A stretch of DNA of 28,141 nucleotides, from the IMG/VR virus record IMGVR_UViG_3300047562_002715, positions 1 to 28,141 of that record; one strand, given 5' to 3'. The stretch is from a virus. Below the pieces are notes generated by a model. The model did no database searches, was not told where the DNA came from, and saw only the letters and a list, made by a program, of their open reading frames with translations. The translations under genes were made by a program, and so were the position numbers. This document shows, in pieces, positions 11,328-28,141 of this stretch. How positions within the stretch are numbered: position 1 is the first letter of the stretch; every line of letters starts with the position of its first letter.

Positions 11328-11346
11328 TTGACGGAGTTTTTTTATC

Positions 11347-11354
11347 TATTTATT
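11347..11354 (-). promoter_or_regulatory. T4-late-type promoter octamer upstream of gp8
   Basis: The minus strand reads AATAAATA in the 44-base spacer between gp7 and gp8, which is the longest gap inside the structural module. It is 20 bases upstream of the gp8 ATG, the same distance as at gp13 and gp25. It departs from the T4 consensus TATAAATA only at the first base. The region is AT-rich, so a chance match is possible; the repeated spacing is the main support. Confidence 0.55.
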
Positions 11355-11371
11355 AGAGATATTAAAAGCAT

Positions 11372-14300: not shown

Positions 14301-17300
14301 ACAGTTTTTAATGCATCTTCTGCACTCTTTGCAAGTTTTATAGTATTACTATCAACTTTAATAATATATACTGAGCTTGGTAATTTGTCAGTAGTTCCTA
14401 TACCAACACCAAAATATGTTGTTACTATTCCAATTGGTTCATTAATTGTTGTTTCGGAACCAGAAGAATATGTAATAAGTTCTCCACTAACAAAGAAATG
14501 ATTTGGAAGTTTGATTGTATTTTCATTTATATCTACAATAGATGAATTGCTTCCATTAAATAGTCTTTCAAATACTGGATAATTTTTGTGAGTTATGTCA
14601 AATGCTCTTCGGATATCAATATCTGTACCAAAATAATCACCATATCCTGTAGTAAATGTTCCGTTATTATAACTGACATTATCTCTAGTATCATCAATAC
14701 TTCTAAGTGAATTGAAGTAAACTTTTACTTCAGCATCTATATTTGCTATTGGAGTGAACAGAAGTTGTGTTCCATCTACAGATTTTACAGCTCCTACAGT
14801 TCCTAAACCAGAATTAGTTTCTATATTTGCAAATTCTGTTAGGTAAGTTTCTGAGTCATCATCTATCAATATGACTTCGGATAATTGATGGTAATTGTTT
14901 GTGGTATCTGATACTTGAACAATAAAATATCCACCATCGTATTCATTTGGATATTCTCCAATGACACTGGATATTGGAGACGTTGATGATGCAATCGAAG
15001 TAGATCTTGCCCCAAATTTGGCATACTTCATATCAAATGTCCCTACACCAGATACGGAAGAATCTGAAATTGCAACCTGGAGGGTGCTTATTGACGCGGC
15101 AATACCAATGTTTGGGGTAAAATCAATATTTACATTTGAACCTGTTATATATGCATTATATGTTCCAAATCCAGAAGATGCATATCCACTGGAAGATTCT
15201 GTGGATAATTGACCGTAATCTATAAACTCAATATCCGTTCCGTTATGTATAAAACTCAATTCGTCAAATTGATATTCTCCAGTGTTTGAACTAATTTCGA
15301 CTAAAATCTTTCCAGAAGTATATGTTGTTCCAAGACTAACTATCGTCGTAGAACCACTAGATACATACGTTGTATTTGTTTTTAAGTCAACCAAACCACC
15401 TAGAGTAGTGCTACCAATTCCAGAGAAGTTTTCTTTTAGATTATTTGATAAAACACTTACATAATAATCATTTACGGAATATTTTACTGGGTAAAATCTA
15501 AGTACACCGTCATTTCCATCAACAATAAAATCAAAAGAACCTAAATCATAAGATGTTTCTAGTCTTGCGTATTGGTTTATATACCCAATAAAATTATCAT
15601 GAATAAGGGTGACTAGCATCAATTGCCTTTGTCCAATATATCTCTTATCCTTAACATAAGTGATATATTTTAATGCTCTTGCATCGGCAAGTGCAAATCG
15701 ATTTATATCACTAAATCTTGTTGGTCTTGGATAACTATTAAAAGTACTACTGAAATCATCTATAGTTAAAACTCTATTTCCAACTGATTCAAAATAATCA
15801 GTCAAAACTCTACTTGTAAAATCTACCTCATTTGATAGAACTCTATTTTCAATTCTCAATGAATTTTCTCTAACTAAATCAAAGTCATATACGCAATTTA
15901 GATTTCCAAATCCAACAATGTCGGCAGTGATATCGATTATACTGGTAGAGATTCCAACAGATAACTGATTACCTTCAACTTCACTAATAGAAGGTTCGCA
16001 TTGATAATCACTAAATTTTTTAAATCCTGCCGTATGATTTAGAGATCCAACCGCATCTTCCCAAGTTTCATATGAAACTTTAGATTTTAGTGAATATGAA
16101 AAGTTTTGGTAGTAAAAATTATCTTGAACTCTCTGCAAATCATTATTAAGTACTCCAGTATCTGTAATCCACCCATTTTTTACTTTAGAATAAGGACCAA
16201 CATCAATAAATCCATTAAATTCAGTAACAGATGAGATAATACCGTTTGATTTTGAGGATAATCCCTGCAAAACTCTATCACTTTCGACATAATCCCTAGT
16301 TAAAATTTTAAGATTATTGACTTTGTTATCCCATGATTCTACAACTCCAAGTATTTCTTGCGAATCTTCATATTTTACATTTTCTCCCACTAAGAAATCA
16401 TTATTTTTTAGTGAAATATCAAAAACTGGAAAATATTTTTCTGGTATTATTCTTCCGGCAGAGTTGATTGGATCATATGTGCCAGGTTCTTCGCCAGAAT
16501 TTAAGAAATTACTCAAATTGTAGGTTATTGAACCAATACCACCGATGTTTTCATCTACTGAAGTTATTGTGAACAATTGATAGTTATAATTTTGTGAGTT
16601 ATAACCTTTTGCAGTAGAACCAATTCCAATACTAACATTCTCTACCATAATTTTATCATTCACAGAGAATGGGAAAGTATTTCCGGTACTAAATCCAACG
16701 GATAGAATTACAGAAACATCTTTAGTTGTAGAATTGTAAATGATAGTTCCAATGCCAACACCATTTGGATTTTCTGTTGGGATTATCTTTGGTGTTACTG
16801 GGTTTAATCTGTAAGTATTATTCAGAATAGTAACTTTAGTATCTCCTATAGAGTATCTTAAATCAACTTCTGGAATAATTTCTTGAGTTTCTCCATCAAG
16901 AACAATCAATTTGGGTGTAGTGTTATAACCTCTACCTACAGATGTTATTCCAATACTATCAAAAGAGCTTAATGAGTCAATTTTTACTATTTGGGGAAAA
17001 GCTAAACTTGGTCTTATTGTAAAGTCTGAAGAAAAATCAAAACCAATATCGCTAATATTGGTTTTTTCTATTCTACCAATAGTTTTACTTACTGGTTCTA
17101 ATATCGCACCAGATCCGCTAGATGTTCTAACTGTAGAAAATTCTGGTAAACTGTAGTAGTTTTGACCTTTATTTTCTATATCAATTTTTGTTATCCCACC
17201 AAAAGCATTTGATGAATTTGTCTCATAGTTTACAGTAGATATTGTTGGATCATATGAAGATGATTCTGGATTTCTTAGCAATACATAAGTAAATGATGTT

Positions 17301-20300
17301 GAAGCAATTGAAGTAATTTGGTGTTTCCCACTATAATCACTTTCAACGACACTTATTTCATTATTAGAGAATACCGTATCATCTACACTTGTAGTTTCCT
17401 TTACTTCAGGTAATACATTTTTATATACTGGATCCAATCTATAGTATAATTTTTGCGGTATATTTGCACTTATATCCAAAGTTACTTTTGCTGTCGAATC
17501 TATACCAACTCTACCAGATCTCTTTACTTCAAAAGTAGAACCATCCTCAGATTTATCAAATAATTGAGTGTAGTTGGAATCTGAATAAAAGTTCAATTCA
17601 AATGCAGAATATGTAGCAGAATCTTTGAAATATGATAGTGATGTGTCGGAAACATCAAAAGATAATGTTGAATTTTTATAAGCATTTAAAGGTGGATTTA
17701 TCAATGATAGTGTTCCATCATCGGCGGAATTAATATCCACTATTTGTGGAATAAATGATGGATCCTTTATATACAATTCGGATAATCTGACATTATCTTT
17801 ATCAAAAACAATAATATAATATTCTCCATTATTTAATAATCCTAAAGATGGTGATGCTGAAGTATATAAAACTTTTTGCCCATTTTTAAAATTGTGATCA
17901 TTTATTGTTATAGTATTTGTTACTGTATTGACACCAACTGCTGAAAAATCTTTGGGATTAATCAATACTTTTCTATTATAGTCATTATACTTAATGACAT
18001 AATTCTCAGTTGTGTTTGGACTTACATTAACAAATACATAATCGTTATTGATAAGTCCATGTGTTTGTGCTGTAGAAACAGTAACTGTGCTTCTAGAAAC
18101 GTTTCCACTAACTTTTGGATACTCAGTTTTAAAACTATGATAATTTCCTGTGCCAATTCCCAAGAAGTATAACGTTCCTGTATTTGCAGTTAAACTTGTT
18201 ACACCAACAAAAGTTCCCGTAGAACCTAGTCCAACTTTTACTGTAGAAATACCAATTAAGTCATCGGATACCTTGGCAACATAAACCGTTGATTGGTCTG
18301 TAAGAACAGAAGTTGATATTCCATCAGATGATATTAATATTCCATCTCCGCTATAGGTGGAATATAGGAGCGAATCTCCCGTATTTAAATTATGTTTTGG
18401 TAGATAAATTGTTTTTGTTGGAATTGTAATTTCTGTAATTCCAACTCCTGGATTTGAGAAAACTAATGTGGAACCAATACCCACTCCAGAAATACTACCT
18501 AAACCAACTGCCTCTGCAGGGTCAAAATAAATCTCTTTGTTTGGTTTATATGCAAATGAAGTTGACTTACCAACGTTTATACTAATTCTTCTAGGGACTT
18601 CATATAAAACGTCACTATAACTATGTGCTGTTCCAACAGTGCCATCAATAGATCTCAGAACTCTAATTCTTGATGATGGTCTATCAACCTCAAGTACTTT
18701 TACCCTTTCACTTCCAATAGAGAATATGTCATTCTCTTTAACATTTGAATATGCAATATTTCCGGAAACCGAGAAATAAGTGACTATTCCAGTCAATCCT
18801 ACAGTACCAACTCCACTTGGACTTGATATTGAAAACGTATTTGTAGTAACTCCAGCAGAATAAAAAGATCTATCTAATATTGAACTTGTATTAAGACCTG
18901 ATAATGTAACCAGATCTTTATTATTAATACCATGTGGCGAATCAGATTCTATAAAGAATAATCCACTATTACCTTCTTGTGGATAAATTTCAACATTATA
19001 AACAGTCGTTGAAGCAACGCTGATAGAGTTTACATTCTTTCCACTAACTCTGGAAACCTTGGATGATAATCCAAATCCTCTAGTATCATTATCATTAAAT
19101 ATTATCCTATCATTTACTTTATATTGAGATCCTCCCGAAATAATTTTAATGTCTTCAACTGATCCGGGAGAAGCATATTTAATATCTACCGTTTGATTTA
19201 GATCATTTGGTAAATTAAAATATGGATATGATGCGCTATTCTTAAACAGATTATAATGTTTAGTATTTCTTATCCAATTGCTACTATTTAAATCATAATC
19301 ATCTTGGTTTGAGTTATCGTCAAAGTTAAATTCATTTGGTTTAGACTTGAAGGTATTTCCTATTAGATATGGAAAAGCTGGCAATCTATAACCACCAAAA
19401 GATAGTGAAGATGAAGAATCTATAGTTGCAAAATATGCATAAGTCCCATTTGGGAAATCTGGAGTTATACAGAATCTTCCGTTATGTTCATCTAACACAG
19501 TATCATCATCATTATTATTATACTCATAATCTTCAATGAAAAATCCATTTGGGAATGGTGGTCTATCGCTTAGGGGATTTAGAGAATATCCTGAGTTTAG
19601 TCTTGTTACTATTCCGCCATCTTTTTTAGAATAACCATAGGGTCCATAAATTGGATTTCCATCATATGCCCATCCAATAATTGGTGAGTGGTCTGTAGAA
19701 GAAACTTCACTATTATTAAATATTCTTAAATCAGTTTTTCCATAAAGAATATCACCACCAAGTTCCACTGCATAAATGCTTTCTCTTAGTTTTCTTGGTG
19801 CATATACGTGACCATACTGCAATCCATATCTTGAAATTGAATTTTTAAATATAAATCCATCATCTCTTTTTATGCTACTCAAATTTTTCTGGAACAAATT
19901 AACTGTCCAAGATTTTATTTTTGGTTGTAAATCTGCGCCACTTCCCGGAGATATAGCTTCGATGAAAGTATTTTTTGGATCATATCCAATTCCACTTTCA
20001 ATAATTTTTACAGATGTAATAGTGCCATTTTCCAGTACTGGAGTGATAACAGCACCTACACCTTCAGATTCAGTACGAATAGCCAAATCTGGTGGAGCAA
20101 TATATCCTGAACCTGGATTATTAATAAGAACTTGTTCAAGTTTACCCCCATTTATTATCGGTATTAATTTGCAACCAGAACCAATGTTTAAGTTTACTTG
20201 AGGATTTCTATTGAAGTTTAGAACTTCAGATGATCCATATCCAACGCCATTTTCTTCTAAGTGTACTGAAGTAATTTCTCCTCTAAAGATTGGTTGTACC

Positions 20301-23300
20301 TTTGCTGAGAATGTCTCTCCATTTATGGAAGATATTCCTACCCTACCAACAACTTCAACGCTAATTTCAGGATAATTAAATGAATGAACTCCACTACCAG
20401 TTGATGTTAGATTGATATATTGCTTATTTCTGTAATAAAAATCTTTATTGCCAGTTTCTATGCCAACTAAAGATAATCTAAATTTATTATCATCGACTTT
20501 TGTAACGTAATAATTTTCTCCAGCAGTTAATCCACCAATAGAACTTCCTGTTGTGCTATATTTTACAATTTCTCCAGAATTGAAATCGTGATTCTTAATC
20601 TCTATATTTTCAATAGATGTTGTTATTCCGGATGCTATTGCAGTTCTCTTCTTGTTCTGATAATTAACGCCACCACTCTGAACATTAATAGAATTGATAA
20701 CAGACTTCTTATTATATGATTCTATGTACTGATTACCAACACCAAATGATGTTAATGAAATTGTATTGATACCAGATAATGCATCGCTATAAGTATTGTG
20801 GAATTTTATTGTATACTCATCAACAGTTGAAACAAAATATGAAGAATTAGTTGATATTCCACCAACACCTTCTTGCGAATCAGTTCTATAAACAACTCTT
20901 TCACCGTATCTAAATTTGTGATATGTGGTGAAACCAATAGAATTATTTGAGGTGTCTACTTGAGACGATTGTGGTTCTGCATTAAAATATACTTTATGAT
21001 CTACCAGTTTTAAAGAAGCAAATGCCTTTGCACCAATTCCATTACCTCCGCTTATTTTTATTTTTGGAGTTTCAAGATAATCAAATCCAGGATCAATAAT
21101 CCTTATCGCTCTAAGAGAACCATTTACAGAACAATATCCAGTCGCACCAGTTCCAACCGAATCTGAGATTACTAGAGTTGGTGGATTTATAACGTCATAA
21201 TCAGCACCCGTGCTATTAACTTCAATATCCTCTAGAGGACCATAATAAATCCTATCCTTAGATTTGTAGTTTAATATTTCTACACCATTGATTAGAATAC
21301 CAGTAGAACCTGGATCGGTGACATACTCACCTCCATCATTAATTGGTGGTCTCAGTTCTCTTAGTAATTTTTGTGACTGTAATTCTAAAGAATACTTTTC
21401 ATAATCTTCAATCGTACTATTTGAAACCGTTACTGGATTATCTAATGAAACGAAAATTGAATTGTAAATATTTGATCTACTTTTTGCAAACCTAACAGTG
21501 CTTGCGTTTATTCTTTGTATAAAATACAATCCATCTTCAAACAAAGAACCATTCGAAGATGTGTAATAAACAGATTCTCCCGTATAGAATCCATGGTCTC
21601 TGTTCGTTGTTATTTGGAAAGAATCGCCAACGAAAGTCCCTGAGAAAGTAATAGAACGAGCAGAAGATTTTAGTGGCAAATCACTATAATGAGGCAGAGA
21701 AGGTGTAGATACTAAAACTTTATCTCCATCAGCATATGCATTTTGGATATTAGCAATTTCCGTATTAATATTTGAATATACTTCCGACTCAGCTTTGAGG
21801 ATTAATTTTCTTACTGTATATTTTTTTGTAGTATCTAATACTCCTTGTCCAGAAATTTTAACACTATTTTCGGATACAACAGAAATTACTTTTGTTTCAC
21901 TCTCACTTCCAATACTTGATACTAAATTTAACTTGTCACCAATTTTAAAATTGTGAGCAATTATTGTAGTCAAAAGATATGTATTATCTGTAATATCAAT
22001 TAATTGTAAAGTACTTGATTCTATTACGATGGAGTTATTAAAGAACCAACTATTATACACATTAGAATCTTTTGGATTTAACCCTAAAGATCTTATAATA
22101 GCTCTCTCACCCTTCTTATAATAGTAAGAATCCGAATCAAAAGTTACATTAGATAAAACTGGATTTATTTTTACCTTTATAGTTTCATTTCTATCTTTGT
22201 TTGAAGTTCCATATGCATAAACGTTTAAACTTATTTCAGTAGAATCTTTAACAGTTTTTTCGATATTTTGACAATCGTGAAACTGGTTAAGATTTTTTGA
22301 AGAATATGTAATAACTCCTTCAGTTCCATCGTCATATACTACTGCAATTTCTCCCTGATTTGGAAATCCGATAGTAGAATCAACATCGATAGTTGTAGAA
22401 CTTTGGGAAACATCTCCAATAATTTTGGTTTTGGGGTGGATGGATAAATTTCCATACAAAGATCCATCAACACGAATATCTCTATTATATCCACCATCAA
22501 AACTTAATTTGTAATATACTCTTCCATTTTTGGATACTATCTTTTCTACATCGGAAATTGCAGTATAACCACTTGAAATAGAACCATACTCATCTTGGAA
22601 GAGAGTTGAATTGATGAGATCGGTTGGGTCGCCAGAAATACTCTCTACTACTAAATCATTTGTTACTTGATATTGAGCATCTGATGGTCTTACAAGTAAG
22701 TCTCTTGGCTTGATAACACTAACATCTTCACCATAAAGAACTTTAAATAAGATTTTAAATGAGTTATCAGTTCCTCTTGTTGAATAAAAATCTTTAGATT
22801 GCTTTATAAAAAGATACTTATCTAATCCAGTGTAAAAATCTCTATTCTCAAATCCAGGAGTTAACTGGTATTTAATTTTATTGAAAAATTCTGCCAGGAA
22901 GAGAGAGCTCAAATTCTTTACTTCAGACCCACTTGTATGGTCCTCTGACAGCGAAGTTTCGAATACTAGATGGTCTGGACGGTTTTCATCATTATATGAT
23001 GTTGTCCCACTAAAACCTCTTGCACAACCTAAAAAGGAATTCTCTGTTTTTCCTGTATATGTGATGATTTCATTATCAATTTGTATCAATCCATAATAAT
23101 CTGGAAATCCTATAGTGGATTGAACATTAATGGTTTCATCCAAGAAAGAAACATCAGATGACAATAGCGTAGATTCTTCCTGACGCTTTATTGTATCTAA
23201 TTTAATATATTGGTCAATATTTTGAATAAGATCTGCTGGTGCTCCCTGAAATTCTTGGGAGATATAATACTGTTTTAAAAATTCGGCAACTAGAGGAAAT

Positions 23301-23368
23301 TCTTCCCTAACATATGAAGGGAGTTGATTTTGAAGAACGTTGTTGATCTGAATTCTCTTTTCTGTCAT
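11372..23368 (-). CDS. gp7: Giant gp7-like baseplate wedge protein with repeated beta-modules and a YHYH-like domain, 3998 aa
   Basis: A 3998-residue intact frame, about four times the length of T4 gp7 (1032 residues). The N-terminus carries a gp7 signature: SKDFYSTRGTDNSFKILFKV, then LYGEDV, at about 190-215, corresponding to YDFYSTKGIEASYKFLFKVL in the C-terminal part of T4 gp7 (recalled from memory). The preceding segment (FPLVAEFLKQYYISQEFQGA) also matches there. In T4 gp7, with gp6, gp25 and gp53, initiates the baseplate wedge; the gene's place between gp6 and gp8 fits. The rest is modular. An IDNEIITYTG/GCARGFSGT unit is at about 75-125 with a second copy near 3073-3135. About nine HNF/YYV/VD modules lie between 469 and 3019. 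GxGY modules occur near 712-786, 1030-1155, 2056-2160, 3300-3455 and 3720-3806. A YHYH-like domain lies at about 1180-1345. VGIGT/S micro-motifs are scattered throughout. The start is 4 bases after the gp6 stop. Confidence 0.85.
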   Translation of the reverse strand: MTEKRIQINNVLQNQLPSYVREEFPLVAEFLKQYYISQEFQGAPADLIQNIDQYIKLDTIKRQEESTLLSSDVSFLDETINVQSTIGFPDYYGLIQIDNEIITYTGKTENSFLGCARGFSGTTSYNDENRPDHLVFETSLSEDHTSGSEVKNLSSLFLAEFFNKIKYQLTPGFENRDFYTGLDKYLFIKQSKDFYSTRGTDNSFKILFKVLYGEDVSVIKPRDLLVRPSDAQYQVTNDLVVESISGDPTDLINSTLFQDEYGSISSGYTAISDVEKIVSKNGRVYYKLSFDGGYNRDIRVDGSLYGNLSIHPKTKIIGDVSQSSTTIDVDSTIGFPNQGEIAVVYDDGTEGVITYSSKNLNQFHDCQNIEKTVKDSTEISLNVYAYGTSNKDRNETIKVKINPVLSNVTFDSDSYYYKKGERAIIRSLGLNPKDSNVYNSWFFNNSIVIESSTLQLIDITDNTYLLTTIIAHNFKIGDKLNLVSSIGSESETKVISVVSENSVKISGQGVLDTTKKYTVRKLILKAESEVYSNINTEIANIQNAYADGDKVLVSTPSLPHYSDLPLKSSARSITFSGTFVGDSFQITTNRDHGFYTGESVYYTSSNGSLFEDGLYFIQRINASTVRFAKSRSNIYNSIFVSLDNPVTVSNSTIEDYEKYSLELQSQKLLRELRPPINDGGEYVTDPGSTGILINGVEILNYKSKDRIYYGPLEDIEVNSTGADYDVINPPTLVISDSVGTGATGYCSVNGSLRAIRIIDPGFDYLETPKIKISGGNGIGAKAFASLKLVDHKVYFNAEPQSSQVDTSNNSIGFTTYHKFRYGERVVYRTDSQEGVGGISTNSSYFVSTVDEYTIKFHNTYSDALSGINTISLTSFGVGNQYIESYNKKSVINSINVQSGGVNYQNKKRTAIASGITTSIENIEIKNHDFNSGEIVKYSTTGSSIGGLTAGENYYVTKVDDNKFRLSLVGIETGNKDFYYRNKQYINLTSTGSGVHSFNYPEISVEVVGRVGISSINGETFSAKVQPIFRGEITSVHLEENGVGYGSSEVLNFNRNPQVNLNIGSGCKLIPIINGGKLEQVLINNPGSGYIAPPDLAIRTESEGVGAVITPVLENGTITSVKIIESGIGYDPKNTFIEAISPGSGADLQPKIKSWTVNLFQKNLSSIKRDDGFIFKNSISRYGLQYGHVYAPRKLRESIYAVELGGDILYGKTDLRIFNNSEVSSTDHSPIIGWAYDGNPIYGPYGYSKKDGGIVTRLNSGYSLNPLSDRPPFPNGFFIEDYEYNNNDDDTVLDEHNGRFCITPDFPNGTYAYFATIDSSSSLSFGGYRLPAFPYLIGNTFKSKPNEFNFDDNSNQDDYDLNSSNWIRNTKHYNLFKNSASYPYFNLPNDLNQTVDIKYASPGSVEDIKIISGGSQYKVNDRIIFNDNDTRGFGLSSKVSRVSGKNVNSISVASTTVYNVEIYPQEGNSGLFFIESDSPHGINNKDLVTLSGLNTSSILDRSFYSAGVTTNTFSISSPSGVGTVGLTGIVTYFSVSGNIAYSNVKENDIFSIGSERVKVLEVDRPSSRIRVLRSIDGTVGTAHSYSDVLYEVPRRISINVGKSTSFAYKPNKEIYFDPAEAVGLGSISGVGIGSTLVFSNPGVGITEITIPTKTIYLPKHNLNTGDSLLYSTYSGDGILISSDGISTSVLTDQSTVYVAKVSDDLIGISTVKVGLGSTGTFVGVTSLTANTGTLYFLGIGTGNYHSFKTEYPKVSGNVSRSTVTVSTAQTHGLINNDYVFVNVSPNTTENYVIKYNDYNRKVLINPKDFSAVGVNTVTNTITINDHNFKNGQKVLYTSASPSLGLLNNGEYYIIVFDKDNVRLSELYIKDPSFIPQIVDINSADDGTLSLINPPLNAYKNSTLSFDVSDTSLSYFKDSATYSAFELNFYSDSNYTQLFDKSEDGSTFEVKRSGRVGIDSTAKVTLDISANIPQKLYYRLDPVYKNVLPEVKETTSVDDTVFSNNEISVVESDYSGKHQITSIASTSFTYVLLRNPESSSYDPTISTVNYETNSSNAFGGITKIDIENKGQNYYSLPEFSTVRTSSGSGAILEPVSKTIGRIEKTNISDIGFDFSSDFTIRPSLAFPQIVKIDSLSSFDSIGITSVGRGYNTTPKLIVLDGETQEIIPEVDLRYSIGDTKVTILNNTYRLNPVTPKIIPTENPNGVGIGTIIYNSTTKDVSVILSVGFSTGNTFPFSVNDKIMVENVSIGIGSTAKGYNSQNYNYQLFTITSVDENIGGIGSITYNLSNFLNSGEEPGTYDPINSAGRIIPEKYFPVFDISLKNNDFLVGENVKYEDSQEILGVVESWDNKVNNLKILTRDYVESDRVLQGLSSKSNGIISSVTEFNGFIDVGPYSKVKNGWITDTGVLNNDLQRVQDNFYYQNFSYSLKSKVSYETWEDAVGSLNHTAGFKKFSDYQCEPSISEVEGNQLSVGISTSIIDITADIVGFGNLNCVYDFDLVRENSLRIENRVLSNEVDFTSRVLTDYFESVGNRVLTIDDFSSTFNSYPRPTRFSDINRFALADARALKYITYVKDKRYIGQRQLMLVTLIHDNFIGYINQYARLETSYDLGSFDFIVDGNDGVLRFYPVKYSVNDYYVSVLSNNLKENFSGIGSTTLGGLVDLKTNTTYVSSGSTTIVSLGTTYTSGKILVEISSNTGEYQFDELSFIHNGTDIEFIDYGQLSTESSSGYASSGFGTYNAYITGSNVNIDFTPNIGIAASISTLQVAISDSSVSGVGTFDMKYAKFGARSTSIASSTSPISSVIGEYPNEYDGGYFIVQVSDTTNNYHQLSEVILIDDDSETYLTEFANIETNSGLGTVGAVKSVDGTQLLFTPIANIDAEVKVYFNSLRSIDDTRDNVSYNNGTFTTGYGDYFGTDIDIRRAFDITHKNYPVFERLFNGSNSSIVDINENTIKLPNHFFVSGELITYSSGSETTINEPIGIVTTYFGVGIGTTDKLPSSVYIIKVDSNTIKLAKSAEDALKTVPVEIDFVSVGIGSEHTITSTNQNAKVLVTIDNVIQSPIVSTDIVTGLSTSALSSEDIIYVDSITNLFGGDLLKIDNEIMRISGVGIGSTNSVSVIRPWMGTESVGHSTGTTVTKVIGNYNIVDNTINFVSAPYGNVPLSSTTNPPDERDWIGISTGSSFQGRVFLKNGTRETTEETYYKNYIFDDISSGFNGIGKTFTLTSEGLNITGISSDNAIVLINDIFQPPGLTNSYTLDEDAGITSISFVGAATSLASDINTSTLPVGGLIVSVGSTEGFGYQPLISAGGTAIVSTAGTIASISIGNSGSGYRSGIQTATGIEPVVVRVAVATSSTGTPNIEFIGTAAVNNGNIVSIAITNPGVGYTSTNPPYVIIDDPLSYSNIPLVYSSSSSGIGTQSTIDIVVGQGSSVIDFTINNVGYGYTVGDVLTIPIGGIAGIPTTSSPSFKEFEVRVDRIFNDKFTGWSVGEIQIFDNIEYLFDDQRLIFPLYYQGQIVSVLTEKGSNITIQDTLLVFVNDILQVPGEGYVFNGGSAIEFTEAPKIGDTCKILFYKGNGDVDVIFRNILETVKIGDDIILTYDSLLGQPATLLENPRTVLDIKSTNLVDTNPYYGPGNTTDPTLRRPVIWCKQTEDKIINEQEISKDRTLYEPSIYPAAYIIQSVGVGSTTVYVDNLRPFFDPQNENDIELDFQNNITIISQENKVGASATATVSSTGEVISVTITDGGFGYTSTPVVVFETPVGLGTTQRASGIASVSSGVVTSISISFGGTEYSQPNPPKVLIETPSANYESDAVTNFVGDSGVIVGFGTTTISSADKVIFDLYIPEDSYLRDSSLVGSAVTLSSLNQDDYFIVYDSNVGFSTDSFYSLDNIGNTIGIATTCIDNIYQVDSASDVLSTITGIGTTIVRRVFARVSGMATVSFGSSTSSFYFGSFSWGKINLSYRSSENQYNAYTNNGISGISSSALIFRSSPLKYKNYII
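14310..21960 (-). repeat. Array of about nine dispersed FCCH-like modules within the gp7-like gene
   Basis: The encoded protein repeats a 45-65-residue unit: His-(Asn/Asp/Gly)-Phe-like turn, a G(D/E/Q)xVxY strand, a variable loop often containing GGL or LL, then YYV or YFI, V(D/N)xxxxR/K-(L/F)(S/A). Examples are IKNHDFNSGEIVKYST with YYVTKVDDNKFRLS (about residues 924-966), INDHNFKNGQKVLYTS with YYIIVFDKDNVRLS (1823-1866), and LPNHFFVSGELITYSS with YIIKVDSNTIKLA (2953-3019). Others begin near 469, 588, 809, 1473, 1655 and 1766. The pattern resembles the modules often labelled E1 FCCH-like in phage tail proteins; that match is from memory. The copies are diverged, so they are repeats at protein rather than DNA level. 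Confidence 0.65.
17039..17065. other. Perfect 11-bp inverted repeat inside the gp7-like gene
   Basis: The plus strand has AAAACCAATAT, a 5-base loop CGCTA, and ATATTGGTTTT, a perfect stem, followed by further T residues on the plus strand. It lies within codons for KTNISDIGF. The stem is AT-rich with a short T-tract, so it could act as a weak terminator of antisense transcription or an mRNA hairpin, or it may be chance. Confidence 0.4.
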
Positions 23369-23372
23369 TTTG

Positions 23373-25301
23373 TTATGATCTTACTAAATTTCCGTTACTG
23401 TAGCTTGAAGTTACAATATAGTTTGATGCCGAAGGATCAAGTCCAGATGCTATTTGGTCTGGAATCATTTCGAAAATACTCTTACTAATATCTAGTTGCA
23501 AATATAAATCCTGTAATCCAATTACATCATTTGACCTTGGGATGGCAGAAATTTCTATAATAGATTGTCCATCCTTAATTTTACCTTCAAGAATATTAAT
23601 AGGATTTAATGTTATAATACCATTCACATAATCTATTGTTCCAACATTTCTCTTTAAAACTGTTGCAGTAGTTGAATTCACATTTGGAACTGTAAATAAG
23701 AAGATTGAACCCGTTGTCCTGTTGGAATCTGGTATATCTGACAAATATACAGTCTCTTGGAATTCTGATATTCTAAATCCAGATGATTTGATGTTATATC
23801 CATCCATACTCTTAATATGGAATGCATTCCCAAATCCAATTTGATATTCTGCGATTGTATTTAATGCAACTCGCAAATCCCTTCTAATCTGAATTTTAGT
23901 AATATTTGAAGTAACAGATTCGTGACTATCATCAATTATCTTCAAGAATTTACTATATTTAAATCTTGCACCATACTTATTTAAGTCAGTTGATTCTGAG
24001 TATTTTGTAGCATTTGATTGAATGATAGTAGAAACAAATGCAGAACTTGGAGCTAGATTTGTGTTGTAATATACCTTTGAATCTACCTCAACAAAAAGAT
24101 ACTTCAGATCTAGTATTTCGGGTACTATACCAGCAACAGCATATTTTTTTAAATCTCTCTTTATGTTTTCCTTAATTAGATTTGGTATAAAATCTCCTGT
24201 TCTTGGTTTTATGCTTATGAAGACTTTTCCATATTGTGGAGGAATTAACTCTTCTCCACCAAATACAGAGATTGATTCTGTCTCTGGATAAATTTTTGAT
24301 GGGATTAGTGCTTCGTAATCATTTGCAGATAATGCTCTATTCTGTGATGAATATATTCTTGGTGCATATCTACGAATAGATTCCACTGATTCAATATTTT
24401 CGCCGCCCTGAGATATAACACCAGTTGTAAGTAGAGATATTCCAGAAGTTACCTGATACTCTATTGAGTTGCGAGTATATGATAAACTTCCAGAAAAACT
24501 AAATTGACCAATTCCATTACCACTATCACCATTTGAAGTTATATAATTTATTTCAATAAAATTATTTTCTTCTAGTTTTTTCCCAAATAAAACGCCATCA
24601 CCAAAAAATATTTCATATCTCTCATCTTCAATTTCTTGAATATAGTAAACATTGGAGTTTTCATCAATGTCAAATACATTATCTTGCAATCTATACTTTA
24701 TAGATGATGTAGATGAAACATTTTCTCTTACTTTTACTGATATTAATGCAGTATCAACCCCCGCATTTGGTAGTATGAATCTTTGATTTACGTTTCTTGC
24801 ACTATATGTGAAGTTGCTTGTGAGTAAAACGCCTTCATATATCTGAATATCATTAAATGATGCAATATTATCTACAACTGGAACAGTAATATCATCTAAA
24901 ATCGAGAATACGAAAGATTGATTGCCAAAAGATCCTGATGTGGTTGCAACAACACCCTTCTTCAACGTCAATGTTGATGGTACTGGAGTGATGTCTGTTG
25001 TATCTACAAAAAAGCTTACCGTTGCTAGTGCTGCTTTTCTTGACCTTGGAATATATCCAATATTTCTTGCAAGTGATACAATATTCTCTCTTAACGAAGC
25101 ACTATCAATAAACACTTCATTTGAAACCATATTTGCATTATATGAAGTGATATAAGTGTTATATGCTAAAACATCTATAATAGTTGCCAAGTTGGATCCT
25201 TCAAAATCATAATCCGTAAAATTGGAATTTGATTTTAAGTAATCTTTTATAGATGTTTTAATCTGGTCAAAATCCAGATTTGAAAAATTTACTAATGGCA
25301 T
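23373..25301 (-). CDS. gp6: Baseplate wedge protein gp6
   Basis: A 642-residue protein, close to T4 gp6 (660 residues). The N-terminal region (IKDYLKSNSNFTDYDFEGSN at about 18-37, then LAYNTYI at 45-51) matches T4 gp6 (NEFLDYDFEGSRL...LLAYNTLYI) as I recall it. Later landmarks also correspond: DERYEIFFGDGVLFG (T4 TEFYFGEGEIS), EINYITSNGDSGNGIGQFSF (T4 IEYISTNGADANGAVGFSY), and KVFISIKPRTGDF (T4 AFIAAKPKSGLY). gp6 dimers form the inner ring of the baseplate and join neighbouring wedges; gp25 and gp7 bind it in the core bundle. The family extends to baseplate J-like proteins. The ATG follows the gp25 TAA directly with no intervening base, so translation is probably coupled. Confidence 0.96.
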   Translation of the reverse strand: MPLVNFSNLDFDQIKTSIKDYLKSNSNFTDYDFEGSNLATIIDVLAYNTYITSYNANMVSNEVFIDSASLRENIVSLARNIGYIPRSRKAALATVSFFVDTTDITPVPSTLTLKKGVVATTSGSFGNQSFVFSILDDITVPVVDNIASFNDIQIYEGVLLTSNFTYSARNVNQRFILPNAGVDTALISVKVRENVSSTSSIKYRLQDNVFDIDENSNVYYIQEIEDERYEIFFGDGVLFGKKLEENNFIEINYITSNGDSGNGIGQFSFSGSLSYTRNSIEYQVTSGISLLTTGVISQGGENIESVESIRRYAPRIYSSQNRALSANDYEALIPSKIYPETESISVFGGEELIPPQYGKVFISIKPRTGDFIPNLIKENIKRDLKKYAVAGIVPEILDLKYLFVEVDSKVYYNTNLAPSSAFVSTIIQSNATKYSESTDLNKYGARFKYSKFLKIIDDSHESVTSNITKIQIRRDLRVALNTIAEYQIGFGNAFHIKSMDGYNIKSSGFRISEFQETVYLSDIPDSNRTTGSIFLFTVPNVNSTTATVLKRNVGTIDYVNGIITLNPINILEGKIKDGQSIIEISAIPRSNDVIGLQDLYLQLDISKSIFEMIPDQIASGLDPSASNYIVTSSYSNGNLVRS

Positions 25302-25703
25302 TTACCTGGTAGGTTGCAAGACGAACTGTAACTCTTGAGGTGGAACATCTATTCCAATAATTCTGTAGATTATAACAACATCAAAAGCACCGTTTTCATA
25401 ATCGGGATATACTTCTACACTTATTAATCTAACTCTTGGTTCGTAGTTATTGATGGAATTTGTAATTTCATCTCTAACTGTAGATGCCGAAAGTTCATCG
25501 ATATTTTCAAATAATGACTTTGATATTCTAGATCCAAAATCTTCATCAAAAAACTTTTCACCAGGAAGGGTAAGTACAATATTTCTAACGGAACGAGCAA
25601 TTGCTGACTCATTCTTCAAAGCAATTAAATCACCAGTCAGAGGATTAGTCTGAAATGATAAACTTATGTCTTTAAAACCTTGACTTACCCTTTCTAGAGG
25701 CAT
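25302..25703 (-). CDS. gp25: Baseplate wedge protein gp25
   Basis: A 133-residue protein (T4 gp25 is 132). The diagnostic parts are visible: GEKFFDEDFGSRISKSLFEN at about 48-67, and NNYEPRVRLISVEV at 85-98 containing the conserved Glu-Pro-Arg triad (residues 88-90) shared by gp25 and the type VI secretion protein TssE. gp25 connects the gp6 core bundle to the first sheath ring and helps trigger sheath contraction. The gene begins a run of structural genes and is followed immediately by gp6. A late-type octamer is centred about 24 bases upstream of its ATG, within the end of the preceding gene. Start: MPLERVSQGF, with no alternative ATG nearby. Confidence 0.96.
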   Translation of the reverse strand: MPLERVSQGFKDISLSFQTNPLTGDLIALKNESAIARSVRNIVLTLPGEKFFDEDFGSRISKSLFENIDELSASTVRDEITNSINNYEPRVRLISVEVYPDYENGAFDVVIIYRIIGIDVPPQELQFVLQPTR

Positions 25704-25722
25704 TTAATGTTATAAATCTATC

Positions 25723-26484
25723 TTATTTATCAGTCTTTTTTGATTCATAGAGGGGTTCTGTGCCGTATTCCCAGTCATCATAGTCCTCATCATTACGAAT
25801 TTTTGAGTGAATTTCATTTTGATGGTAAAAATCGTGTTTTTTTGGTGTTAAGTCGTCATTTGCAATCTCTCGAAGCATTTTTTGCTTCTCAATTTGGTTA
25901 TCCCAACCATATTCACTTGACAAATACTGTGTTCCCCACTCATTTTTCATAAAGTTTTGGTCTTTATCGACTTTTTTAGTCATTTTTAGCTCCTGATTGA
26001 TTAGATCAGAACTTTTTACGGGGTTGCTATCCCGTTTTTCAATAATATCATAATCATCTTGCATTATTTCTTTCAAGTATTCATCATCCCACATATCATA
26101 GTAGGATGTTTTTGCTAAAGTTTCCCTAAATGAGCGTAGTTTCTGAGTTGGCTGTCCTAAAATCAAATTATATTTGCCATTATTAGTTTTAATTCCGTTA
26201 ATGAATGTATCGTAGGCACCACAATCCTCAAAAAACTTCCATGTTTCATACTTTTTATTACATACATCTACCCACTCCTGAACTTCATTCAAATTAAAAT
26301 GGTCCTCGATAATATAAACTACCACATCTAACTCTTGAATGGGTTCTATGTCGCTTGCAGAGCACTCTACGATGCGATATTTCGACTTAGAAGCAAACGG
26401 GCAAACCGCAAACCCATTTAATTCTGGTCTCACCTTTGAAACCTCGGCAATCCAATTAAGAATAAATCGTTCTTTTTCTGACAT
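25723..26484 (-). CDS. Conserved cyanophage protein of unknown function, 253 aa
   Basis: A 253-residue protein that I recognise as a conserved unknown of T4-like cyanophages. The N-terminal half (residues 1-140) looks like a folded alpha/beta domain: FILNWIAEVSKVRPELNGFA, then VCPFASKSKYRIVE, with a Cys-Pro-Phe-Ala motif at 28-31. That motif recalls the NLCPFA motif of bacterial DUF1415 proteins; this is a weak resemblance, not an assignment. The C-terminal third is very hydrophilic and acidic (NDEDYDDWEYGTEPLYES), probably flexible. No membrane segment or known catalytic motif is visible. An intrinsic terminator ends at the base before the ATG, leaving no visible Shine-Dalgarno sequence or leader. 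The gene must therefore be expressed by read-through or from an unrecognised start. It lies just upstream of gp25, but a structural role is not shown. Confidence 0.8.
   Translation of the reverse strand: MSEKERFILNWIAEVSKVRPELNGFAVCPFASKSKYRIVECSASDIEPIQELDVVVYIIEDHFNLNEVQEWVDVCNKKYETWKFFEDCGAYDTFINGIKTNNGKYNLILGQPTQKLRSFRETLAKTSYYDMWDDEYLKEIMQDDYDIIEKRDSNPVKSSDLINQELKMTKKVDKDQNFMKNEWGTQYLSSEYGWDNQIEKQKMLREIANDDLTPKKHDFYHQNEIHSKIRNDEDYDDWEYGTEPLYESKKTDK
25724..25731 (-). promoter_or_regulatory. T4-late-type promoter octamer upstream of gp25
   Basis: The minus strand reads GATAAATA, 20 bases before the gp25 ATG. It overlaps the TAA stop of the 253-residue gene (25723-25725), as also happens at gp13. 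It would drive the gp25-gp6-gp7 transcript. Two further octamers at the same distance from their genes make the call more credible than the motif alone. Confidence 0.6.
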
Positions 26485-26517
26485 AAAAAAAGAGTGCTTA
26501 ACCTATTTAAGCACTCT
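26485..26517 (-). terminator. Intrinsic terminator ending the glycosyltransferase/small-protein unit
   Basis: On the minus strand a perfect 11-bp stem (AGAGTGCTTAA / TTAAGCACTCT) with a 5-base loop ATAGG is followed by six further T residues, and then directly by the ATG of the 253-residue gene. It lies 9 bases after the stop of the 44-residue gene. The plus strand lacks a T-run after the stem, so it should act only on leftward transcription. Confidence 0.9.
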
Positions 26518-26526
26518 GAAAATTAT

Positions 26527-26661
26527 TTAACCTTTACCTTGTCCACGATACTTTTTCTTTTTGCCATTACGAGAGGTTGCACTCAGTAGTGTACGAGCAG
26601 AACGTCCTTGGCGAGTTTTCTTAGGTGCTCCAGGTTGAAAGATAGTTTTATTAAGTGCCAT
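26527..26661 (-). CDS. Small highly basic conserved cyanophage protein, 44 aa
   Basis: A 44-residue protein, MALNKTIFQPGAPKKTRQGR..., ending in a Lys/Arg/Gly-rich tail (NGKKKKYRGQGKG). About a third of its residues are Lys or Arg, which suggests nucleic-acid binding; that is inference. I recognise this peptide as strongly conserved among T4-like cyanophages. The start is well supported. A strong Shine-Dalgarno GGAGG lies at 26669-26673, 7 bases before the ATG, and the ATG overlaps the TAA of the upstream 49-residue gene as TAATG. A strong terminator follows 9 bases after the stop, so this is the last gene of its transcript. It is too short for many ORF callers. Confidence 0.85.
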   Translation of the reverse strand: MALNKTIFQPGAPKKTRQGRSARTLLSATSRNGKKKKYRGQGKG

Positions 26662-26810
26662 TAAATTTCCTCCAGTTCAATTAAATTAGGATCAATATCA
26701 TCTCCCGAGAAAAAGCGTTCCGAGAGGTCTTGAAGAACCTCAGTACATTCTTCTGCACTGAGGTTTGTATAAATCTTACGCCCTTTATAAAGTACGTTAT
26801 ATTGTTTCAT
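26661..26810 (-). CDS. Small conserved cyanophage protein, 49 aa
   Basis: A 49-residue protein (MKQYNVLYKGRKIYTNLSAE...ending in NLIELEEI). It starts within the stop codon of the glycosyltransferase gene (TAATG overlap at 26810), and its own stop overlaps the next start in the same way, so three genes are chained by one-base overlaps. The motif YNVLYKGRKIYTNLSAEE is of a kind I know from many short cyanophage proteins. It is also similar to YHIYAKEKCIYHSLKEEE in the 74-residue protein on the other side of the glycosyltransferase. The fold is probably a short beta-hairpin followed by a helix. No function is known to me; there are no membrane or metal-binding motifs. Confidence 0.82.
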   Translation of the reverse strand: MKQYNVLYKGRKIYTNLSAEECTEVLQDLSERFFSGDDIDPNLIELEEI

Positions 26811-27574
26811 TAGATAATACGAGTTTTCTCATGCCCAACTCTAATACGAGGATCGCACCAGATATCAAAGCCTTTCTCTTTTGCATCAAGACAGAATGAA
26901 ACATCCTCTCCACACATATCCTGAACATTTCCAGATTCAAAGACTTGCATCTTAGGAGCAAACCAAGGATATTCGAGATTTTCAAAAACTCCTTTCTTAA
27001 TCAGAACCCATCCAAAACCTGTGTAATCTACAGTGAACGGCTTACGACGCTTCTGAATCGACTCCACAGTTTCGTGGTTCATAACTCCACCATTCTTGCG
27101 GAAATCATCTTCTTCTAACCAGTGTGCGACAGATGTTGTGTGTCCATCTTCTGTGGCATACCAACCAGCAACAATCTCACGCTCAGTTCCATCTTCACTC
27201 AGTGCCATATCACAAAGTTGCCAGAACTTGTTAGTGTCAAAGACAATATCCGAGTCAATCCAAAGTTGATAATCATATTCTAATTTACCATCCCAAGGAA
27301 TTTGATTCGGACCTCTAAGAACATTTGCACCTAATACTTTACAACGTGCAAAGTTTACCATCGATGAGTAATCTTGTGAAATCTGAATACTCATTCCATT
27401 CTGTACCATATCAAAGCATAGTTGTACAAATGCTTTCAGAAAAATAAAAGAGCATCCTCTTCCAGGAAGACAAAATACAATTGACTTTCCTTTCATTCTT
27501 TCTTTAATTGCAGCAATATCCCATTCTTCCTTTTTGGTTGGTGCTGCAGCTTTAACAGTAAATCCTTTTGACAT
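26810..27574 (-). CDS. GT-A-fold glycosyltransferase (family 2-like)
   Basis: A 254-residue protein with the hallmarks of a GT-A nucleotide-sugar transferase. Residues 31-37 (SIVFCLP) form the first strand of the Rossmann-like half. YQLWIDSDIVF (102-112) holds the metal-binding DxD triad (Asp107-Ser-Asp109). YTGFGWVLIKKGVFE (185-199) and CGEDVSFCLDAKEKGFDIWC (221-240) carry the acceptor-side acidic pair, and GHEKT near the C-terminus offers the usual late His metal ligand. The length is normal for a cytosolic single-domain enzyme; there is no membrane segment. Such genes are common in cyanophages and may modify virion proteins, host surface glycans or phage DNA; the substrate cannot be read here. 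It has a near-consensus sigma70 promoter just upstream, an AAGGA Shine-Dalgarno at 27586-27590, and is chained to two small genes downstream. Confidence 0.88.
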   Translation of the reverse strand: MSKGFTVKAAAPTKKEEWDIAAIKERMKGKSIVFCLPGRGCSFIFLKAFVQLCFDMVQNGMSIQISQDYSSMVNFARCKVLGANVLRGPNQIPWDGKLEYDYQLWIDSDIVFDTNKFWQLCDMALSEDGTEREIVAGWYATEDGHTTSVAHWLEEDDFRKNGGVMNHETVESIQKRRKPFTVDYTGFGWVLIKKGVFENLEYPWFAPKMQVFESGNVQDMCGEDVSFCLDAKEKGFDIWCDPRIRVGHEKTRII

Positions 27575-27598
27575 AAGAAAAATAATCCTTCAACATCA

Positions 27599-27627
27599 AT
27601 TTTAACAGTCTATATATCTCCTGTCAA
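27599..27627 (-). promoter_or_regulatory. Near-consensus sigma70 promoter for the glycosyltransferase unit
   Basis: The minus strand has TTGACA (27627-27622), a 17-base spacer, and TAAAAT (27604-27599). The -35 box is a perfect consensus, the spacing is ideal and the -10 differs by one base. It lies in the 55-base gap between the 74-residue gene and the glycosyltransferase. Transcription would start near 27592, giving a short leader that includes the AAGGA ribosome site. Host-type early promoters of this form are usual in T4-like cyanophages. Confidence 0.82.
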
Positions 27628-27629
27628 CT

Positions 27630-27854
27630 TCAATAAGATGGAGTTCCAGGAGGTTCAGCAGATAAGTTATTCCCCCCTCCGATGTTCGTAGATAACTCAA
27701 TATAACTCAAATCATTTACCTCATAATCAGTCTTCATAATACCTACCATTCCTTTTAAATTCTCCCAGGTATTCTTAAACTCTTCCTCCTTTAATGAATG
27801 GTATATGCACTTCTCCTTTGCATATATGTGATATATTTTTTCGGTTGCAGTCAT
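27630..27854 (-). CDS. Small conserved cyanophage protein, 74 aa
   Basis: A 74-residue protein starting MTATEKIYHIYAKEKCIYHS. The frame remains open upstream to 27902, but the start at 27854 is preferred. A GGAG Shine-Dalgarno lies at 27863-27866 with 8-base spacing, and a longer form would overlap the preceding gene with a poor, charged N-terminus. Residues 5-35 share the pattern Y-x-(I/V)-x-x-K-x-(K/R)-x-IY-x-x-L-x-x-EE with the 49-residue protein downstream, suggesting distant paralogues. The C-terminal tail GGGNNLSAEPPGTPSY is glycine/proline-rich and probably disordered. Function is unknown to me. The next promoter begins 3 bases after its stop. Confidence 0.8.
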   Translation of the reverse strand: MTATEKIYHIYAKEKCIYHSLKEEEFKNTWENLKGMVGIMKTDYEVNDLSYIELSTNIGGGNNLSAEPPGTPSY

Positions 27855-27885
27855 AAAAATATCTCCGGAATTTTTTCTTTCTTTT

Positions 27886-28044
27886 TCATTTCGACACTGC
27901 ATTATATATCACAGCAATACAAAATCCTAGTGCAATAAAAAACGGGCGTGGATATCTTATCATCCATCCCGCTATAACAACCTTCCAGAAATTCCAATAG
28001 GGGCGTCTTCGATAATACTTCGAAGAGTATAGAGGGGCATTCAT
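27886..28044 (-). CDS. Small single-pass membrane protein, 52 aa
   Basis: A 52-residue frame: MNAPLYSSKYYRRRPYWNFW, then KVVIAGWMIRYPRPFFIALG, then FCIAVIYNAVSK. It has a basic N-terminus (Lys9, RRR at 12-14) followed by a tryptophan-rich amphipathic segment and a hydrophobic stretch at about 35-49 long enough to cross or enter a membrane. The positive-inside rule places the N-terminus in the cytoplasm. The ATG overlaps the TGA of the preceding frame as ATGA, a typical coupling signal. The 74-residue gene follows after 31 bases that hold its ribosome site. A different frame over the same bases (GTG start at 28093) is less plausible in composition. Function is unknown; small membrane peptides of this sort are common in phage early regions. 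Confidence 0.65.
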   Translation of the reverse strand: MNAPLYSSKYYRRRPYWNFWKVVIAGWMIRYPRPFFIALGFCIAVIYNAVSK

Positions 28045-28121
28045 ACTTCCGGAAAAATATTTTTAGATTGATATTGAGAGGTCGATTTGTCACCTCTGTA
28101 GGTTAGGGTAGTTTGGGTTTT
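28041..28121 (-). pseudogene. Broken or start-less short frame resembling DUF4278 (YRG motif)
   Basis: An open stretch of 26 codons, KTQTTLTYRGDKSTSQYQSK followed by NIFPEV and a TGA, with no start codon: an in-frame TAA precedes it at 28122-28124. The segment TLTYRG resembles the start of the short cyanobacterial and cyanophage DUF4278 proteins. The TGA overlaps the next gene's ATG as ATGA, which argues that this frame is, or recently was, translated. A run of six A residues lies at the upstream end. A one-base change there would join it to the frame reading ALRYKK at the window edge. It could be a frameshifted or truncated gene, a sequencing error near a contig end, or chance. Confidence 0.4.
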
Positions 28122-28141
28122 TTATAACGCAACGCCGCGCC

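Follow-up and report, generated by a model that had tools for sequence, protein, structure and literature searches.

Late transcription in T4-type phages starts from a compact promoter that, according to a passage in PMC2988020, requires no -35 element. This promoter is given as TATAAATA at -13 to -6 in T4 and as CTAAATA in Aeh1 (passages in PMC1524935), and as NATAAATA in S-PM2 (a passage in PMC2984593). For a group of genes comprising T4 gene e, soc, 49, I-TevI, and Aeh1 mobE, passages in PMC3014915 and PMC2988022 describe a hairpin in the early RNA that hides the ribosome site, and a late RNA that lacks part of this hairpin. The intrinsic terminators of T4-type phages are described in passages of PMC2988022 as a stem and a short loop with an immediate U-tract.

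Here we compare these systems with a junction in the window, i.e., the whole 28,141-nucleotide stretch of DNA analysed, which is an IMG/VR virus record from a T4-like cyanophage with gp25, gp6, and gp8 on its minus strand. The junction lies between a 44-aa gene (phrog_516) and a 253-aa ORF (Table 1). In the interpretation that we favor with moderate confidence, 34 bases at this junction of an early and a late unit form the terminator of the early unit with a late promoter nested in it. One 34-base stretch would probably stop one message and start another, and in a group of cyanobacterial viruses the loop of an early-transcript terminator appears to carry the start signal of the next late gene. 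A late promoter in a terminator loop is not described in the titles and abstract openings of the literature matches listed, nor in the passages of the papers cited here.

As in T4 gene e, soc, 49, I-TevI, and Aeh1 mobE, to judge from the passages cited, the gene is at the end of a longer early RNA, and the box at 26504-26511, if used, is placed so that the late RNA would lack the 5' strand of the hairpin. Unlike in these genes as the passages describe them, where the Shine-Dalgarno sequence or the AUG is concealed within the helix, the stem here is followed by a T-tract, the AUG lies 6 unpaired nt beyond it, and there is no Shine-Dalgarno sequence; a sequestered Shine-Dalgarno or AUG of that type is not found at 26484. 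The best reading is that the 26484 element is a variant of the gene e/I-TevI arrangement and not a member of it. A second element, upstream of gp13 (see below), differs from the described arrangement in that the box is the loop itself. Compared with the T4-type (gp55) late promoter in the cited passages, the box deviates from NATAAATA at a single specified base and has the same distance to the start codon as that of gp25, but it carries a T at -12 and is embedded in a terminator. The element also has the stem, short loop, and immediate U-tract of the T4-type intrinsic terminators in the passages of PMC2988022, and differs from them in having only 4 G-C pairs in 11, a loop that is partly conserved in sequence, and a T-tract that ends at a start codon.

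Table 1. Positions of the features at and around the junction in the window.
Feature	Positions	Strand	Description
Early (sigma70-like) promoter of upstream unit	27599..27627	-	TTGACA-17-TAAAAT, TG before second hexamer; 11/12 matches
Glycosyltransferase-like gene, first of upstream unit	26810..27574	-	phrog_1574; weaker match to phrog_34859 glycosyltransferase
49-aa ORF	26661..26810	-	Borderline phrog_3252 match, E 0.00099
44-aa ORF, last gene of upstream unit	26527..26661	-	phrog_516
Intrinsic terminator	26485..26517	-	Arms 26507-26517 and 26491-26501, loop 26502-26506, T-tract 26485-26491
Candidate late-promoter box CTTAAATA (-13 to -6)	26504..26511	-	End of 5' arm and start of loop; putative
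Predicted late RNA start (+1), A in 3' arm	26498	-	Placed by T4 spacing; leader 26485-26498 = 14 nt
253-aa ORF	25723..26484	-	Residues 8-141 match phrog_10325 (function unknown)
Internal Shine-Dalgarno AGGAG (25990-25994) and ATG (25981-25983)	25981..25994	-	Opens 86-aa C-terminal part of 253-aa ORF
Consensus late box ATAAATA of gp25	25724..25730	-	20 nt before gp25 ATG
gp25 baseplate wedge gene	25302..25703	-	Late class by T4 analogy

Terminator Hairpin Abutting the Start Codon

The minus strand at 26517-26482 reads AGAGTGCTTAA-ATAGG-TTAAGCACTCT-TTTTTT-ATG, which is an 11-bp terminator hairpin with a T7 tract abutting the ATG at 26484 of the 253-aa ORF. The original prediction had placed the end of the hairpin and T-run at 26485 and the ATG at 26484, and these positions are right. 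The hairpin has a folding energy of -13.7 kcal/mol, while shuffles average -4.09 (z -5.25; 0/200 shuffles equal it), and the stable stem-loop with an immediate U-tract that characterizes intrinsic terminators is thereby found at 26485-26517. Of nine terminator-like sites in 10000-28141, it is listed first and its T-tail is the longest; because 6.9 such sites are expected in shuffles of this region, the scan alone proves nothing, and it is the fold that carries the proof. The same prediction held that RNA from the upstream unit should end at the hairpin, which the stem (z -5.25), the T7 tract, and the conservation of the element support, and that read-through RNA would bear the hairpin a few bases 5' of the AUG, which is supported by the predicted stem lying 6 nt away.

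Early-Type Unit above the Junction

Upstream of the glycosyltransferase-like gene that opens the unit, an early promoter scores 11 or 12 of 12 in 76 of 93 distinct regions (window included), with a shuffle expectation of ~0.3 at score 11. Since this early-type promoter is conserved, the junction separates an early-type unit from gp25 and other late-class genes. The 253-aa gene had been suggested to be separated in time from the unit above, and the promoter in these 76 regions makes such a separation likely. At 26484-26560, no sigma70 promoter was found among the best-scoring sites listed. In 37 of the 93 regions, [AC]TAAATA occurs within 80 nt upstream of the glycosyltransferase-like gene, and 12 of the 25 rows displayed have it within the early-promoter spacer; early and late promoters possibly overlap there.

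Candidate Late Promoter in the Hairpin

The original prediction stated that no promoter was visible between the hairpin and the gene. This is probably wrong, given the late-type box within the hairpin. TTAAATA, running from the last bases of the 5' arm into the loop's first half, is invariant in 24/24 aligned copies of the element, whereas the other bases of the loop differ between copies in both identity and number. No particular loop sequence is required for a terminator. TTAAATA is similar to the late box of T4-type phages, N[A/C]TAAATA, and the distance from its end to the ATG is 19-22 nt in all 23 distinct relatives among the matches listed, i.e., the ~20 nt characteristic of a late promoter, before a gene of the late unit. 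Upstream of gp25, 70 of the 107 regions having a box show a distance of 20 or 21 nt between the end of the box nearest the ATG and the aligned start. The predicted +1 is a purine in 24/24 aligned copies (A in 23, G in one), and the base after the box is not G in 5 of 24.

The T at -12 is off consensus, as none of 110 gp25 boxes has T there, and CTTAAATA therefore departs from N[A/C]TAAATA. Variants of the stem carrying A, C, or G at -12 were also sought; they occurred in 41 stretches, none of which continued with a T-run and ATG.

In the mechanism we propose, RNA from the promoter at 27599-27627 would run through the glycosyltransferase-like, 49-aa, and 44-aa genes, fold the hairpin, and stop in the T-tract, and little early RNA would enter the 253-aa gene. 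In any read-through RNA, the stem so close to the AUG should hinder ribosomes. Late in infection, a gp55-type sigma would recognize CTTAAATA in the 5' arm and loop, and RNA would start at about 26498. This late RNA would hold only part of the 3' arm, so that it could neither fold the hairpin nor terminate there, and its leader AGCACUCUUUUUUU would run directly into the AUG.

If this is true, a compact phage genome overlays stop and start signals on the same bases, and neighboring genes switch in time without an antiterminator. It would further explain cyanophage genes that begin right after a T-tract without a ribosome-binding site, and would provide a searchable signature, namely a late box as a terminator loop.

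Calibration of the Late Box

The window contains 4 copies of ATAAATA against 18.7 expected, all of them on the minus, i.e., coding, strand. In 498 kb of relatives, 5 antisense copies were counted against 174 expected, and such strong avoidance can readily be used to identify the late-sigma specificity of unknown phages. In the 108 distinct regions upstream of gp25, ATAAATA was counted 103 times and CTAAATA 7 times, and one region has neither. Antisense counts in eight isolate regions (392 kb) were 3 for ATAAATA, 3 for CTAAATA, 42 for TTAAATA, and 43 for GTAAATA, the last two showing no avoidance. With 116 observed against 151.5 expected in the clade, TTAAATA is not clearly avoided antisense, and thus does not amount to a strong late promoter on its own. 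Depletion of ~3-fold or more is seen for [CG]TTAAATA and TTAAATAG, and the antisense copies observed and expected were 8 vs. 23.1 for CTTAAATA, 5 vs. 24.5 for GTTAAATA, and 8 vs. 21.4 for TTAAATAG.

Of 9 [CG]TTAAATAG sites located elsewhere than in the element, 5 are followed 18-24 nt downstream by an ATG that opens an ORF, compared with 20/945 in permuted-core controls (Fisher p 1e-6) and 1/228 for [AT]TTAAATA[ACT]. This family was defined after 3 of the 5 positive sites had been seen; without the isolate regions the count is 2/5 (p 0.005), and one of these two (L047) overlaps a stop codon. Four of the five positive sites, in Bellamy, S-SCSM1, AG-345-E15, and L047, are located downstream of a phrog_516-like gene and ahead of the next gene. 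For Bellamy, gene 106 was identified as phrog_516-like, and the S-SCSM1 site comes after one further short reading frame. AG-345-E15 has another terminator, GGGGGAGCAATCCCCCTTTTTTT, with GTTAAATAG after it and an ATG 19 nt later, so that terminator and box are adjacent, not nested. The fifth site is before gp15 of P-TIM68. Separately, a late box at 9929-9935 on the minus strand lies inside the gp8 gene, ~160 nt before the following 7.5-kb gene, and is a possible internal late promoter.

Conservation of the Element and the Case for a Plain Terminator

A protein-only search of viral contigs returned at least 600 stretches, of which 80 loci were kept, and the N-terminus and upstream DNA were readable in 47. 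Among these matches, the element is present in 25 of the 47 relatives (23 distinct) and absent in 22. The T-run is 7 long in 21 of the 23 distinct relatives listed, 8 in one, and 6 in one; it contacts the ATG in 21 and is 2 bases off in the other 2, and conservation of the geometry in other cyanophages, which had been put forward as a check, is thus borne out among these matches. Several relatives carry one or two extra N-terminal codons (ATG TTT ...), and the T-tract still abuts the ATG. Lower-identity relatives are mostly without the element.

In the 23 distinct aligned rows, 99.6% of the stem cells are paired, with only G-U changes and no two-sided changes in the element's own stem, so that its conservation could have other causes. 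A scan with a 14-mer found at least 119 stretches and at least 69 full elements. All 69 follow the end of a phrog_516-like gene, and the T-run contacts the ATG in 65 and is separated from it by AT in 4, among the matches listed. As these loci were selected for the sequence, they were left out of the conservation counts. A 58-base blastn query against a phage collection (E up to 10) matched 5 records, none from a cyanophage, and the exact element is accordingly known here from IMG/VR contigs only.

The alternative that survives best, which we regard as unlikely, is a plain terminator: the hairpin ends the early unit, the AAATA of the loop is inherited and is not a promoter, the 253-aa gene is weakly read through or silent, and genome compactness accounts for the contact between ATG and T-tract. 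The off-consensus T at -12 speaks for it, as do 12 relatives that have a terminator at this junction (such as GCAGGAAGAAATTCCTGCTTTTTT) without an [A/C]TAAATA or TTAAATA box (one of the 12 has GTAAATA at the upstream stop codon), and those, e.g., L026, L031-L035, L046, and L076, in which the gene begins right after the upstream stop codon without the element. It fits poorly with the invariance of TTAAATA beside variable loop bases, with a box-to-ATG spacing that matches gp25, with the recurrence of the same box at the junction outside such a hairpin (L003, L210, L212), and with the nested box in a covarying stem before gp13. In L025, L041, L042, and L043, the junction holds a hairpin of another kind with a T-run. 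A conserved terminator that differs from the element, with no late box before the next gene, follows the phrog_516 gene in L055, L056, L059, L060, L074, L075, L077, and L080-L084.

Late Box as a Hairpin Loop Upstream of gp13

The gp13 site came up in a search for hairpins around late boxes. A search with Syn1 gp13 (at least 80 loci) together with isolates gave 58 distinct upstream sequences, of which 46 were aligned. Among the matches listed, 44 of these 46 have a stem of at least 9 contiguous pairs and a 7-nt loop that is [A/C]TAAATA, the exceptions being L267 with a mismatch in the closing pair and L305 without the stem, and a T-run of 4-7 before a G follows the stem in 45 of 46 (L268 has TTTTTA). 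Six of the 12 stem pairs are changed on both sides (shuffle mean 2.7, with 1/500 shuffles reaching 6), the covariation score is 0.321 vs. 0.150 in shuffles (0/500), and 94.5% of the stem cells are paired in 29 distinct rows. Since the stem covaries around the box, both hairpin and box are kept.

In five near-identical loci (L323, L326, L327, L329, and L332), a late box lies at the foot of a terminator-like hairpin with a T7 running into the gp13 ATG, and L322 and L335 have a box before gp13 and no T-run at its ATG. The nested arrangement was not found before gp13 in the five isolates L209, L210, L212, L213, and L216. S-PM2 and Syn1 carry the gp13 form, so that the proposal, if true, is testable in culture.

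We give about even chances to the broader proposal that T4-like cyanophages build some unit junctions in which an intrinsic terminator has a late-promoter box for its loop. Two independent instances would then be the 26484 element, with a variant box and a T-tract that adjoins the AUG, and the gp13 element, with a consensus 7-nt loop and a covarying stem. A general enrichment of hairpins around late boxes was set aside as support. A hairpin score of at least 10 was reached around 8 of 55 late boxes against 0.8 expected from flank shuffles, but controls on real sequence (4.5% of random and 7.9% of non-coding positions, and 4/41 background GTAAATA sites) shrank the effect to a modest one. A score of at least 14 was reached by 4 of the 55 vs. 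0.27%, of which one is the 26484 element and two are the same gp13 site. In T4 (74-112 kb), 18 [ACT]TAAATA sites have an ORF ATG within 60 nt, and 6 of them score at least 8 vs. 1.8 expected, with none of the 18 scoring at least 10. Late boxes in or overlapping inverted repeats without a T-run were also seen at L214:18514, L209:33255, L210:40945, and L216:41680, upstream of a VrlC-like gene, gp15, and gp18.

Possible Antitermination and Gene Exchange at the Junction

The original prediction interpreted the junction as a switch in which the gene is read only when an antiterminator or a phage-modified polymerase suppresses termination. An early promoter and its genes do lie directly upstream in the same direction, and read-through RNA would include the gene, yet dependence on suppressed termination was not supported. 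No alternative antiterminator fold appeared in the MFE and centroid folds of a 121-nt stretch, which both retain the terminator stem, and the single Rfam match over 23000-28141 is under the gathering score and located elsewhere than the hairpin. Antitermination is also not needed, because the hairpin contains a late-type box, spaced from the ATG as usual, that permits a fresh start of the gene, and overall we find such a switch very improbable. A transcript start inside the upstream gene, which had been named as an outcome that would speak against the switch, is not what the sequence suggests either, as the predicted start falls within the hairpin.

T4-type phages reportedly shuffle genes at promoter/stem-loop (PeSL) cassettes, which are said to consist of a sigma70 early promoter and a stem-loop. 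As far as this goes, the 26484 element is similar in combining a terminator with a promoter where genes are exchanged, and differs in that the promoter is late-type and nested in the hairpin. That the near-identical hairpin is kept as a crossover site for exchanging the gene below, with regulation secondary, agrees with L089 and L111, in which the gene body is unrelated and the element and its T-tract/ATG join are retained, but leaves the invariant box beside variable loop bases and the 19-22 nt spacing unexplained, and is in our view the least probable reading, one that can also hold together with a nested promoter. Below the element, the scanned L089 and L111 carry a phrog_3704 gene (labelled ferredoxin); L102 is identical to L089 there, and L118, L145, and L165 are near-identical to L111. 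All six replacements retain the C-terminal RDSNP[VL]KSS of the other family, and look as if the body had been exchanged between two fixed ends.

Start Codon, Leader, and the 253-aa Gene

Returning to the nested late promoter, its RNA would be translated from a U-rich 14-nt 5' end. There is no Shine-Dalgarno sequence before the ATG at 26484, which confirms that part of the original prediction, but such a lack is ordinary here: a Shine-Dalgarno sequence is present in 0/95 distinct gp25 leaders, 5/46 gp13 leaders, 5/96 leaders of the glycosyltransferase-like gene, and 0/11 of the 49-aa gene, as compared with 10/10 of the 44-aa gene. Leaders of this kind, which the original prediction had called unusual, are common in these phages. 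A late-leader fold pairing the U-tract with early codons was also observed.

A start codon farther downstream was considered and rejected. The next in-frame ATG is residue 131, and as a start there would remove nearly all of the conserved domain (8-141), the ATG at 26484 is very likely the correct start codon. Relatives align from its methionine or from one or two codons after it.

The 253-aa ORF itself resembles two genes in one frame, an N-terminal domain (phrog_10325) and an 86-aa C-terminal part with its own AGGAG/ATG (25983), and the N-terminal domain has its own stop in S-SCSM2R, L121, and L131. An inverted repeat, ACGGGATAGCAACCCCGT, lies within the ORF at 26018-26035, has its T-run on the plus strand, and is partly intergenic in L121.
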